This document shows positions 23,369 through 28,204 of a DNA stretch of 64,000 nt, one piece after another. Positions within the stretch are counted from its first letter, which is position 1. Every line of letters begins with the position of its first letter. Location of the stretch: the NCBI RefSeq assembly GCF_000615445.1, contig NZ_BALY01000002.1, positions 42,490-106,489 of the forward strand. Reading direction: 5' to 3'. This DNA comes from Lactobacillus hamsteri DSM 5661 = JCM 6256. Its GTDB lineage: Bacteria; Bacillota; Bacilli; Lactobacillales; Lactobacillaceae. Under the pieces are notes generated by a model that saw nothing but the letters and a program-made list of their open reading frames with translations, had not been told where the DNA came from and ran no database searches. The translations under genes and the position numbers were made by a program.

Positions 23369-24015
23369 TGGATAAAAAAATATCAGAATTGTATGACGCG
23401 GGCAAAATTGACCGCGCCATTCACTTATTAATAGAAAAAATAGATGCACATCCTCAACAAGTTGAGAATTATTTACAATTATCAACTTATTTGATTGAAC
23501 AGGGGAGTCCAGATCAAGCCCAAAAGCTTTTAGAGCAGGCTGAACATTTAGTGAAAAAACCGCAAGAATTATTTTATAATTTAGCAGTTTGTTACTATAT
23601 GCAAGGCGATTTTGATAAGGCACTAAATTTACTTGATCGCATCCCTAATGATGATTTGACTTTGTATCAAAAATCATTGGTATATTTAAAATTGGGGCAA
23701 AGTCAAAAGGCTTTAGCTTTTGCACTTACAATTAAAAATATTGATGAGCGTGTACAGGAATTATTGGGTGATATTTGGATGAGCTTAGGTCAACTTAAAG
23801 AAGCAGAAAAGACTTATTTTCAAATTCCTGATGAAAAACGATCTGCAAAAATATATTTCTTATTGGGCGTTACATTGTTTGATCATGATCGTGATCAAGC
23901 AGAAAAGATGTTTGCAATTTCTAAAAAAATGGATGAAAAATATTTCCAAAAAGCCCATGATCAATATGCTTCAATTTTAAAATTAGTCAACGATAAGGAA
24001 AAGAAAAATGGTTGA
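23368..24015 (+). CDS. TPR repeat protein
   Basis: A 215-residue helical protein with five or six tetratricopeptide-like repeats (for example AIHLLIEKIDAHPQQVENYLQLST, FYNLAVCYYMQGDFDKALNLLD). TPR proteins are protein-binding scaffolds. It is coupled to the upstream phosphatase and overlaps recD2 by eight bases, the order seen widely in Firmicutes near recD2. The specific partner is not known. Confidence 0.82.
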   Translation: MDKKISELYDAGKIDRAIHLLIEKIDAHPQQVENYLQLSTYLIEQGSPDQAQKLLEQAEHLVKKPQELFYNLAVCYYMQGDFDKALNLLDRIPNDDLTLYQKSLVYLKLGQSQKALAFALTIKNIDERVQELLGDIWMSLGQLKEAEKTYFQIPDEKRSAKIYFLLGVTLFDHDRDQAEKMFAISKKMDEKYFQKAHDQYASILKLVNDKEKKNG

Positions 24016-26389
24016 GTTTACCGGTAAGATCAATGGAATCGTTTTTGAAAATGATAAAGATCTTTTTAAAATTCTCGATGTTGAGATTATTGGAAATCTT
24101 GATGACTATGAGCGTGATGAAATAAAAGTAACCGGTAATTTTGGTGATGTGCAGGTTGGCGGAAGCTATCGGTTTGATGGCTATTTGGTGATGCATGAAA
24201 AGTTTGGATTGCAGTTTAGAGCCAACACATATAAGCAGGTTTTGCCCCATGAAGAAGGAAGTTTAACTAGATATTTAAGTTCTAATAAATTCCCAGGTAT
24301 TGGTAAAAAAGCTGCAGAAAAAATTATTGGTGAGTTAGGTTTAAAAGCTTTAGATGTTTTAAAAGATAACCCTGCTAAAATTGATGATTTGGATTTAACC
24401 CAGAAACAAAAAGATAGCCTATTATCAGGACTTAATACTATGGATTCTTTTTCGGAGGTTCTTCTTAAGCTTGCACAATTTGGGATAAATCGTAAAACTG
24501 CAACTCGCTTGTATCAGTTATATCATGGTGAAGCTGTTGAAAAATTGAAAAAGGACCCTTATGCATCAGTTGCAGAGGTAATAGGTTATGGTTTTAAAAC
24601 TGCTGATCAAATTGGACGTGAAATAGGTCTTGCTCCAGATGATCCTAAAAGAATAAAGGGCGCTATTTTTCAAGTCTTATTGGATGCTTTAAGTGGCATA
24701 GGCGATACTTATGTAAGTTTAGCCACACTTTTAACAGAAGCGAGCAAATTACTTAATATTAATCAATTTGATCCAATTGCTACCGAAGTTAATGCGTTAC
24801 AGGCAGATGGAAAAGTAGTTGTCGATGGTGAAGATGCGGCATTAAGCAATATCTATCAAACAGAAGTAGAAATTGCCAGATTGATGAAAAATTTGGTTGA
24901 AAAACGTAATTTTCAAAAAGATGAAAAATACGATGATGAAGATATTGATGATGCAATTACCAATGCGGAAAAGCAATTACGTATTGAGTATGACGAAACT
25001 CAAAAGATGGCTATTAAGAATGCTGTAAACAATCCGATTTCAATCCTTACAGGTGGTCCGGGTACCGGTAAGACAACGATTGTGAACGGAATTTTGCTGG
25101 TTTTGCGTGAATTGGCTGATATTCCTGCTTCGGCTCTTTATAGCGAAGATCCACCATTTCTCTTAGCTGCACCAACGGGTCGAGCAGCTAAGAGAATGAG
25201 TGAAATTACTGGAATTGCTGCTAAAACGATTCATCGCTTGTTGGGATTAGGAATTAGCGATAATAATACCGAAGATTTAAATGAATTAAACGGTGAAATT
25301 TTAATTATCGATGAAATGTCGATGGTTGATATGTTTTTGTTTAAGCAACTATTATCTAGTATCAATCAGACACGTCATATTGTCTTTGTGGGTGATAAAA
25401 ATCAATTGCCATCGGTTGGAGCAGGAAATGTCTTTAGCGATTTAATTAAATCAAGCGCATTTCCCACAACAATTTTGAAACAAATTCACCGGCAGGGTGA
25501 TGATTCAAGTATTATTACTTTGGCACATGACGTAAATGAAGGAACAAACCAAGAAGTTTTATTTAAAAAAACTAAAAACTATTCATTTATTCCATGTAAG
25601 CCACAATTAGTTGGGGATGCTGTAGGACAAATTGTTGAACTTGCTTTAAAACGTGGTTTTGAAAAAGATGATATTCAAGTTTTAGGGGCCATGTATCATG
25701 GAAATGGTGGGGTTAATAATTTAAATGATATTATTCAAGAAATTATGAATCCACCTAAGGCTAAAAGTAAGTCAATTCAAATTCATGATGAAGCGTTTAG
25801 AATTGGCGACCGTATCTTACAATTACAAAATAATCCTGAAAAAGATATCTATAATGGACAAATAGGTAAAATTATTGGTATTGATGAAAAAAATTCTAAG
25901 GCTTGTTTAATTGCTAATTTTGATGGTCGAGAGGTTGAATTTGATCGAAAAGATTTAAATGATTTAACCAGGGCATATGCTATTACTATTCATAAATCAC
26001 AAGGTTCAGAATTTCCGCTGGTGGTTCTTAATTTAACCATGCAGAATTATGTAATGCTTAAACGTAATCTGCTTTATACAGCTATTACACGTGCTGAAAA
26101 GAATTTAGTGCTTATTGGTGATCCAAGAGCATATATTGCAGCTCTTAATACTCCTGGCAATGATCGTAAAACAGGTTTGACTAGAAAATTGCAAGAGATG
26201 CTAGGTATTGATGAAAAAGATACATCGGATACAAAAAGTGTTAGTGCTACTGATAATAAAAAAGATAAAGAATCCAAGGTAGAGAGTAATAAGGGATCAG
26301 AAAATTATATTTTGACTAAAGAAAAAATATATTCGGGTGAAATTGATCCAATGATTGGGATGGAAGGGATTACTTTGTTTCAAAATTAA
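24008..26389 (+). CDS. recD2: ATP-dependent DNA helicase RecD2
   Basis: Superfamily 1 5'-3' helicase of organisms lacking RecBCD, involved in repair and replication-fork maintenance. The N-terminal OB-like and helix-hairpin-helix region (FPGIGKKAAEKII) is followed by Walker A GGPGTGKTT near residue 348, the Walker B segment IIDEMSMVDMF, QIHRQ, and the 2B-domain motifs TIHKSQGSEFPLVV and YTAITRAEKNLVLIG. The 793 residues are normal. The 3' end is directly followed by a hairpin terminator that is now split by an insertion sequence. Confidence 0.95.
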   Translation: MVEFTGKINGIVFENDKDLFKILDVEIIGNLDDYERDEIKVTGNFGDVQVGGSYRFDGYLVMHEKFGLQFRANTYKQVLPHEEGSLTRYLSSNKFPGIGKKAAEKIIGELGLKALDVLKDNPAKIDDLDLTQKQKDSLLSGLNTMDSFSEVLLKLAQFGINRKTATRLYQLYHGEAVEKLKKDPYASVAEVIGYGFKTADQIGREIGLAPDDPKRIKGAIFQVLLDALSGIGDTYVSLATLLTEASKLLNINQFDPIATEVNALQADGKVVVDGEDAALSNIYQTEVEIARLMKNLVEKRNFQKDEKYDDEDIDDAITNAEKQLRIEYDETQKMAIKNAVNNPISILTGGPGTGKTTIVNGILLVLRELADIPASALYSEDPPFLLAAPTGRAAKRMSEITGIAAKTIHRLLGLGISDNNTEDLNELNGEILIIDEMSMVDMFLFKQLLSSINQTRHIVFVGDKNQLPSVGAGNVFSDLIKSSAFPTTILKQIHRQGDDSSIITLAHDVNEGTNQEVLFKKTKNYSFIPCKPQLVGDAVGQIVELALKRGFEKDDIQVLGAMYHGNGGVNNLNDIIQEIMNPPKAKSKSIQIHDEAFRIGDRILQLQNNPEKDIYNGQIGKIIGIDEKNSKACLIANFDGREVEFDRKDLNDLTRAYAITIHKSQGSEFPLVVLNLTMQNYVMLKRNLLYTAITRAEKNLVLIGDPRAYIAALNTPGNDRKTGLTRKLQEMLGIDEKDTSDTKSVSATDNKKDKESKVESNKGSENYILTKEKIYSGEIDPMIGMEGITLFQN

Positions 26390-26399
26390 AAGACTTAAG

Positions 26400-26408
26400 A
26401 ATTTGATT
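26400..26408 (+). repeat. Left copy of 9-bp target-site duplication of the IS
   Basis: AATTTGATT directly precedes the left inverted repeat and recurs at 28064-28072 directly after the right one, as expected of a transposition footprint. Confidence 0.9.
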
Positions 26409-26456
26409 CAATGTCATTAAGTTAAGACATTGACAATAATAGTTGAAAGTGTTTTT

Positions 26457-26490
26457 AAGAATCGAATCATTTGGATTCGATTCTTTTTTT
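26457..26490 (+). terminator. Inward-facing terminator at the left end of the IS
   Basis: A perfect 12-bp stem (AAGAATCGAATC against its complement), a 5-base loop and seven T lie between the left inverted repeat and the transposase. It would stop transcripts entering from recD2. A second hairpin (AAGGCG...CGCCTT) is at 26511-26529. Confidence 0.8.
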
Positions 26491-26570
26491 GCATAAAATA
26501 AAGGCGAAAAGACCTACCTTCTCGCCTTAGTATTAAATTTTAGACCTTCAACTTTATTACCAGAAAGCTG

Positions 26571-27950
26571 GTGCTAATTATGAAAGCCCTTCATAAAAAT
26601 ATTTTAGAGCGTCTTGATCAAATTATCAATGATACCGGTAAGCATATTCATAATTTTATTGATAATTCTCATGCCTTTACCAGAAAACGTACTTTAGATG
26701 CAGCGACTGTTCTTAAAACTACAATTAATATGCAGGGGCAGAATTTAACAAATGAATTGTTTAGAGCATTTGGTAAAAAAGCTATCAAAAATAATGACAA
26801 AATAGTTAGCACATCTGCATATGTCCAACGCAAAAGTCAATTGACTCCTGCTTGTTTTAAACATATTTTGACGGTCTTTAATCAAGATTTGTTTAATATT
26901 CAGCTGCTAGATCACCAGTATCGTTTGTTTGCCATTGATGGTTCTGATTTTAATCAAATTTGGAATTCAAAATCGAAAAATATTGTACAATCTGCAACTC
27001 ATATAAATAAGCCTTATTGTCAAATTCATGTTAATGCCTTATATGATCTAATGAATAATACTTATCAGGATTGTATTTTTCAGCCTAAATCAGAAATGGA
27101 TGAACGTAAAGCGGCTGTACAAATGCTTAAAGCTTTGAATTGTGGTCCATACATTGTAACAATGGATCGTGGTTACACCAGTTTTAATATGATTGAAAAC
27201 TGTAATCGTTTACCAAATTGTTACTACATAATACGAACTAAAGTTGGACGTAGCGGATTTAAAGAAATAGAAACATTGCCTAATCAAGACTGTGATCGTG
27301 ATATTTCCTGTCGCGTAACTACCTCTAATTATTACTACATCACACATAAAGCACATGAAAATATCCATCATGTCAATCATCATTATCACCAATATATTAA
27401 ATATCGTTCTAAAAATACACAAGATCGCAACTGGGATTTTGGCGAATTATGTACAGTAAAATTTCGTGCTTGCAAGTTCAAAATAAATGATTCCAAATAT
27501 GACAAAGAAGAATGGGAAGTTGTGCTAACTAATCTTGATCGGAAAACTTTCCCACTACAAAGAATTAAAGAGCTTTATCATTTGCGTTGGGGTATTGAGA
27601 GCTCCTTTAGGAAGCTTAAGTATTCTTTAGGCTGTGTAGAATTTCATTCTAAACAAGATAAATTTATTGAAATGGAAATTTATGCTCATATGATTATGTT
27701 TAACGCAATTAGTCAAATCGATGCACAAGCCTATATCCCACAAAGGCATTGCAAGTATCAATATGCCATCAATTTCAAACAATCATGCTTTATCATTCAA
27801 AGTATGTATTTGATTTCTTCTTTATCGCGAGATTTTGAACGGATTCTTATTCAAATCAGTTATTATACGATTCCGATTAGGCCGGGACGCAAGGATAAGA
27901 GAATTATTAAACCTAAATCAGCTGTATATTATTTGTATCGTGTAGCTTAA
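26571..27950 (+). CDS. IS4-family transposase
   Basis: DDE transposase. Numbered from the ATG at 26580, the catalytic residues are visible as D120 (FAIDGSDF), D196 (VTMDRGYTSF) and E340 in the signature Y-2-R-3-E-6-K (YHLRWGIESSFRKLK), characteristic of IS4. A GTG at 26571 is the alternative start; no clear SD supports either. The frame is intact and full length (about 456-459 residues), so the element may be active. A single copy lies in this window. Confidence 0.93.
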   Translation: MLIMKALHKNILERLDQIINDTGKHIHNFIDNSHAFTRKRTLDAATVLKTTINMQGQNLTNELFRAFGKKAIKNNDKIVSTSAYVQRKSQLTPACFKHILTVFNQDLFNIQLLDHQYRLFAIDGSDFNQIWNSKSKNIVQSATHINKPYCQIHVNALYDLMNNTYQDCIFQPKSEMDERKAAVQMLKALNCGPYIVTMDRGYTSFNMIENCNRLPNCYYIIRTKVGRSGFKEIETLPNQDCDRDISCRVTTSNYYYITHKAHENIHHVNHHYHQYIKYRSKNTQDRNWDFGELCTVKFRACKFKINDSKYDKEEWEVVLTNLDRKTFPLQRIKELYHLRWGIESSFRKLKYSLGCVEFHSKQDKFIEMEIYAHMIMFNAISQIDAQAYIPQRHCKYQYAINFKQSCFIIQSMYLISSLSRDFERILIQISYYTIPIRPGRKDKRIIKPKSAVYYLYRVA

Positions 27951-28063
27951 AAATTAAAAAAGTGCTATATCATACAAAAAAGCACCAATTTAACAAATTA
28001 ATTGTTAAATCAGTGCTTAAAAAGTCAAAACTAGTTTGTCAATGTCTTAACTTAATGACATTG

Positions 28064-28072
28064 AATTTGATT
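28064..28072 (+). repeat. Right copy of 9-bp target-site duplication of the IS
   Basis: AATTTGATT follows the right inverted repeat and matches 26400-26408. It is followed by CTTAAG and a T-rich tract, the right arm of the split recD2 terminator. Confidence 0.9.
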
Positions 28073-28090
28073 CTTAAGCCTTTTATATTT

Positions 28091-28204
28091 TTATTTGAAT
28101 TTCTTATTTTTAACAGGAACTTCTTTTGGTTTAATCATTGTGATACTTGTTGCAGTTAGTAGTAATACTAAAAAGGAGCAGCAAGTAAGGAAAATATGAA
28201 TCAA
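28091..28204 (-). CDS. Possible 37-aa single-pass membrane peptide
   Basis: A TTG-started frame on the minus strand gives a hydrophobic segment (FLVLLLTATSITMI) and a basic tail (KNKKFK). AAAGGATG lies eight bases upstream of the TTG. It would converge on the split recD2 terminator, which has A-runs on the other side and so could end it. The size and plan resemble small membrane peptides, including type I toxins, but no family is recognised. The call is tentative. Confidence 0.3.
   Translation of the reverse strand: MIHIFLTCCSFLVLLLTATSITMIKPKEVPVKNKKFK

Follow-up and report, generated by a model that had tools for sequence, protein, structure and literature searches.

An IS4-family insertion sequence of Lactobacillus hamsteri and most of its sampled Lactobacillaceae relatives lie in the loops of two-way intrinsic terminators

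We report on an insertion sequence of 1,655 bp (26409..28063, plus strand) in a 64,000-nucleotide stretch of the Lactobacillus hamsteri DSM 5661 genome (contig NZ_BALY01000002.1; hereafter the window), where it splits a hairpin at the end of the recD2 gene. This locus raises the question whether such a placement is particular to one copy or follows a rule that its relatives share and, if so, which feature of the DNA is selected.

The element is bordered by terminal inverted repeats of 28 bp, the right one (28036..28063, minus strand) being the exact reverse complement of the left one (CAATGTCATTAAGTTAAGACATTGACAA; 26409..26436, plus strand), and by two copies of a 9-bp target duplication, AATTTGATT (26400..26408 and 28064..28072, both plus strand). 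Its single ORF (26580..27950, plus strand) encodes a transposase of 456 aa from the ATG, or 459 aa from a GTG at 26571, which scored 150.4 bits against the IS4-family model NF033592 (cutoff 115) and 64.6 bits against PF01609 (cutoff 23). The IS4 family is defined by the motifs D(60-110)D(100-150)E and Y(2)R(3)E(6)K (PMC2266710), and the transposase carries both, as D120, D196 and E340 and as Y333-R336-E340-K347 (ATG numbering); these residues are invariant in 11 aligned transposases, which include ten relatives, E. coli IS4 among them. Moreover, the element end, CAATGTCATTAAGTTA, matches the subgroup-IS4 consensus -AATR--------WTW---- (PMC2266710) at every fixed position, while the ends of subgroup IS231 (CAT-------AA--TAA---) are not matched, the third base being A and not T. 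Subgroup IS4 is given with direct repeats of 10-13 bp and a size of 1,400-1,650 bp (PMC2266710), and both the element and the 9-11 bp duplications of the 28 copies described below lie just outside or at the edge of these ranges. The terminal 24 bp, CAATGTCATTAAGTTAAGACATTG (26409-26432 and 28040-28063), form an imperfect palindrome, of which the first 17 bases do not vary among 11 elements of the group. Searches for relatives gave no match in phages, one partial relative in viral contigs and nothing convincing for the transposase among solved structures.

The gene upstream, recD2 (24008..26389, plus strand; TIGR01448 helicase_RecD2, 767.5 bits, cutoff 500), ends in the left arm of the split hairpin (26387..26402, plus strand), which overlaps the stop codon (26387-26389) and the first three bases of the left repeat. 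The right arm (28070..28085, plus strand) lies beyond the element and runs into a T-rich tract (28080..28097, plus strand). When the element and one repeat are removed the site reads CTTAAGAAT-TTG-ATTCTTAAG, and pairing extends via AAAAG/CTTTT with one A.C mismatch, giving 16 positions per arm around a 3-base loop. The computed stem score of this rebuilt hairpin is 30, second best among 5,880 dyad centres (about 3 kb), and its dyad coincides with the centre of the 9-bp repeat (offset 0). The original prediction, that the duplication rebuilds a hairpin with a TTG loop followed by a T-rich tract and that the insertion is centred on the loop, thus agrees with the sequence. Among 11 recD2 orthologues, examined out of 29 orthologue matches, a terminator-like hairpin directly follows the stop codon in six and is absent in five, and a role of the split hairpin as putative recD2 terminator is supported.

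Relatives of the element were present in 14 of 75 genomes in a genus search (E ≤ 1e-40), the complete genome G005 alone having 19 copies, and in 9 of 397 evenly drawn genomes in a family-wide search (E ≤ 1e-60), among them a second genus with four copies; an order-level search gave no further genome outside the genus. Copies were taken to qualify when both ends and a target duplication were found in the fetched locus. This resulted in 28 Lactobacillaceae copies (22 in the first set, three from G194 and three from plasmids; 17 of the 28 sites come from one genome) with duplications of 9-11 bp. Left out were the duplicates L039, L046, L047 and L078; copies having both ends and no duplication (L041 = L057, L042 = L077, L051, L053, L061, L074 and L080, as well as L087, L105, L108, L127, L128 and L133); and single ends (L044, L045, L059, L072, L075, L076, L079, L081-L084, L089 and most of L115-L134). 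Also excluded from the count were L097, L098 and L099, which have no duplication, and L109 (Butyrivibrio), with ends that were not resolved; for L043 (Lachnospiraceae) the right end alone was located and the site was not rebuilt.

Some of these loci deserve a comment of their own. Matching duplications were absent in L039, L053, L057, L077, L061, L074, L080, L087, L105 and L108, and most of their flanks resemble half terminators, which is what recombination between copies would produce. The contig halves L100 and L101 resemble one palindrome by eye. In L106, outside the 28-site count, the flanks have a 10-bp duplication at a site that looks terminator-like by eye, and at L106:2501-5326 an ISL3-family transposase gene immediately follows the IS4-type transposase and is itself followed by the right IS4 end, an order suggestive of nested insertion. 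Finally, L128:1963-2379 (417 bp) and L133:2406-2687 (282 bp) have two element ends, are too short for a transposase and resemble MITE derivatives.

The placement seen at recD2 recurs in most of the sample. A stem with a score of at least 19 was found within 4 bp of the repeat centre in 25 of the 28 rebuilt sites (score at least 20 in 24). The staggered cut is 9-11 bp wide, and its centre lies no more than 4 bp from the hairpin dyad in 25/28 sites. The exceptions are L049, L050 and L073 with weak stems (9-11.5). Using a 6-bp search of the 22 first sites, 17 rank first or second by stem among up to 5,880 surrounding dyad centres and 19 fall in the top 1%, with best offsets between -3.5 and +4. 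The transposases of the sampled copies are 50-88% identical to that of the hamsteri element and the target property holds across them; the three G194 copies (55% identity) are all in terminators. In G005, a stem score of 20 is attained at 16 of 17 sites, compared to 3.9% of 43,414 control positions drawn from the intergenic DNA in 400 kb of this genome, with open-ended frames masked. Chance placement is rejected by these controls, and the insertions are centred on intrinsic terminators above chance. Collecting copies and rebuilding their targets, the check proposed together with the original prediction, therefore gave mostly centred palindromes or terminators.

Palindromy is just part of the target. 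In an alignment on the duplication, A occupies position -11 in 26/28 sites and T occupies position +11 in 25/28, the inner arms show no base preference, and the A- or T-run starts about 17 nt outward of the element ends. At 54 of the 56 ends of duplicated copies, compared to 19% of random positions, a T-rich stretch (5 of 7) is found 15-32 nt outward, and the same holds for 52 of 65 further end flanks; the latter are the distinct flanks of left-out copies, used solely in this count and not all independent events. Both tracts accompany 23 of the 25 strong-stem sites (score at least 19) versus 98 of 215 intergenic control hairpins (p = 7e-6), and the difference persists among control hairpins having either tract (98/170; p = 7e-4). 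Simple palindromy was rejected as the rule, as a fixed -k/+k pairing is weaker than the A/T signal. The expectation of palindromic targets held with respect to the centred stems; A-runs on the left and T-runs on the right, at a fixed distance, are equally regular. Because the tracts stand at a fixed distance beside centred stems, the target is a composite of A-run, hairpin and T-run, that is, a two-way intrinsic terminator. Stem and tracts each carry information, the tracts giving the steadier effect when stems are matched.

Could the transposase read the pair of A- and T-runs alone, as bent DNA at a set spacing, the hairpin being present because such pairs are most often found at terminators? 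A 1994 paper on IS231A reportedly deals with bending of target DNA, going by its title. The weak-stem sites L049, L050 and L073 keep both tracts, the weakest stems include those of copies inside genes, and the tract signal is about equally sharp on the duplication as on the dyad alignment (left 6.49 vs 6.21 bits, right 5.10 vs 5.81 bits). E. coli IS4, whose transposase is 20% identical to that of the hamsteri element, points in the same direction. Thirteen loci were fetched and 12 used, representing five distinct sites; TTT is present at 15-25 nt in 10/10 ends compared to 19% of positions in the K-12 locus, and only two sites are clear terminators with strong stems (scores 37.5 and 28.5), the remaining three having stems of 14-14.5. 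The K-12 site had been considered a clean negative, which was overturned by the four additional sites, with T-runs throughout and two perfect terminators. Against a reading of tracts alone, an inner stem of at least 14 is present in 23 of 26 sites versus 69 of 214 tract-matched intergenic controls (p = 3.4e-8), and the excess persists, while shrinking, at stricter (19/22 vs 60/127) and strictest matching (12/13 vs 30/56, p = 0.011). In addition, the targets of IS1675 and of the G1002 copies are palindromes mostly lacking tracts. We consider it doubtful, on balance, that the tracts suffice.

These relatives bear also on the converse reading, in which the feature recognised is an extruded hairpin or cruciform, as has been proposed for IS1272, with cleavage around the loop; the tracts would then merely ease extrusion. 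The Lactococcus element IS1675 (31% identical over the transposase) was represented by five loci, four with an exact duplication, and its sites (L113, L110, L112, L114 and L111) are palindromes sharing a core like RRGTATACYY and palindromic arms like CCAACA/TGTTGG, mostly with no A- or T-runs. Its target is defined by sequence, unlike that of the Lactobacillus elements. Two G1002 copies also lie in palindromes without tracts, and since most IS1675 and G1002 sites have no clear tracts the target rule differs across relatives. A second element type in G1002 (L161 and L162) has broken transposase frames and flanks sharing a GTGCCTC-like sequence. That distant relatives use palindromes without tracts would suit recognition of a cruciform, and so would the stems of the 28 sites, which are mutually unrelated in sequence and keep their symmetry. 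Duplication length agrees with dyad parity in 19 of the 25 strong-stem sites (p = 0.007), a modest test, and a loop-duplicating branch is drawn as a possible IS1272 route in the excerpted text of PMC5678879. However, the tracts are more regular than hairpins alone would give (23/25 vs 98/215, as above) and weak-stem sites do occur, and extrusion as the main signal is possible without being probable.

The location of the sites relative to genes touches on two further explanations. Terminators downstream of genes account for most of the 28 sites, and 22 of the 28 lie outside any open frame of at least 80 codons. Six lie inside when open-ended frames are counted: frames of 401, at least 1,002 and 327 codons are split in L040, L049 and L073, respectively, L058 lies at the final codon of a frame of 238 codons, and frames of 93 and 103 codons contain L064 and L070, respectively. 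Two of the three gene-splitting copies are weak-stem sites, the third has the lowest stem score among the remaining sites, and all three mostly keep the tracts. Hence, the hairpin is not strictly needed and genes are also hit. The pattern named beforehand as speaking against the prediction, i.e. non-palindromic targets and insertions spread in genes, is partly present, in the three split frames and the three weak stems, with 22/28 sites outside frames. If insertion were undirected and just harmless copies persisted, a predominance of sites outside frames would follow, and selection probably filters the copies to some extent in any event; as gene-splitting copies are mostly weak-stemmed yet mostly have tracts, survival probably adds to preference. 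Survival gives no account of the centring within 4 bp of the loop or of the fixed tract spacing, and other intergenic places are equally harmless, yet just 3.9% of them reach the score of 16/17 G005 sites. Pure survival was rejected on loop centring and tracts, and we regard it as very improbable. Attraction to terminating or paused RNA polymerase, rather than to DNA, would be in keeping with targets downstream of genes, but the IS1675 and G1002 palindromes mostly have no T-runs, three copies are inside long frames, and the T-run occurs on both sides, which makes a role of the polymerase improbable as well. A putative safe-haven strategy, in which insertion into terminators would spare genes, fits the distribution of the sites.

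The element has terminator-like hairpins of its own. One near the left end (26457..26485, plus strand; a 12 bp stem followed by a T-run) and one near the right end (27980..28018, minus strand) face inward, and a further one is located near the left end on the other strand (26501..26528, minus strand). Shuffles of the element gave 0.7 such hairpins on average compared to the three seen, and a hairpin with an inward T-run was present at both ends in all ten Lactobacillaceae elements examined. The left hairpin covaries over 11 elements, with 14 two-sided changes and 94.7% paired, neither of which was reached in 500 shuffles; two of five covariation measures were no better than shuffles (pairs changed on both sides, 77/500; further pair types, 495/500). 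These hairpins are predicted to act as terminators. If so, the inward-facing ones would stop host-gene transcripts that escape the split terminator, and they would shield the transposase gene from transcription entering from outside.

Together, these data suggest that the hamsteri element and most of its sampled Lactobacillaceae relatives sit in the loops of two-way intrinsic terminators and that a transposase dimer selects this dyad-symmetric DNA directly, a reading to which we assign a probability of about 0.72. Each transposase subunit would meet the same layout, a stem arm and then an A- or T-run about one helical turn beyond the repeat, and the cut would therefore straddle the dyad and the loop would be duplicated. 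A dyad-selecting dimer is the most economical reading, two-way terminators being the commonest such sites in AT-rich genomes. We would extend it only tentatively to the IS4 subgroup at large, as a terminator-homing lineage of DDE transposons in which the transposase captures an extruded hairpin between A- and T-runs, the loop is duplicated, and the two terminators of the element take the place of the one it splits; such a lineage might spread from lactobacilli to E. coli while doing little harm, a rule that would also explain the sites of IS4 itself.

For a branch of a large transposon family this provides a concrete target rule (A-run, hairpin, T-run, with the cut centred on the loop), and whether a DDE transposase reads DNA structure can be put to a direct test, for which even E. 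coli IS4 in K-12 would serve. Because the transposase likely recognises a symmetric terminator site at gene ends, a new copy would seldom break a gene, which offers a mechanism by which an insertion sequence can multiply (one genome has 19 copies) and mostly spare genes. It also offers a reason for such elements to carry terminators at both ends. Moreover, copies of such elements mark, and may alter, gene ends and read-through.

Among known systems, E. coli IS4 resembles the Lactobacillaceae copies in its single ORF, its complete YREK and DDE motifs, ends that fit -AATR--------WTW, duplications roughly one helical turn long and T-runs in the target arms of its five sites; it differs in duplications of 12-14 bp compared to 9-11 bp and in strong centred hairpins at 2/5 compared to 25/28 sites. 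Arm specificity in subgroup IS4 targets was reported by De Palmenaer et al. 2008 (PMC2266710), in a text where the word terminator is absent and the sole match to "palindrom" is a program name. IS1272 (IS1182 family) also targets inverted repeats of unrelated sequence; as described in the excerpted text of PMC5678879, where terminator likewise does not occur, its new insertions replace the stem-loop with no duplication, whereas the hamsteri element keeps both arms, duplicates the loop and has a 9-bp duplication. Nine copies of ISRm22 (IS4 family, subgroup IS4Sa) lie in extragenic palindromes, the REP elements, according to the part of PMC1525189 that we cite. REPs are one repeated sequence, whereas the terminators hit by the Lactobacillaceae copies share no stem sequence. 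IS1675 shares the end sequence and has duplications of 10 bp that are likewise centred on palindromes, and differs in the core shared by its five sites and in mostly having no A- or T-runs. Group IIC introns insert behind intrinsic terminators; they are retroelements that insert beside the hairpin, with no target duplication of the loop. The likeness is that they, too, are mobile elements recognising a DNA stem-loop (excerpts of PMC10190682). Our searches of open-access papers gave no IS4-family element described as terminator-targeting, and the excerpts of PMC9208149 and PMC10969869 report none. Targeting of palindromes and stem-loops is already known from IS1272 and ISRm22; the apparently new part is the intrinsic terminator as target of an IS4-family element.
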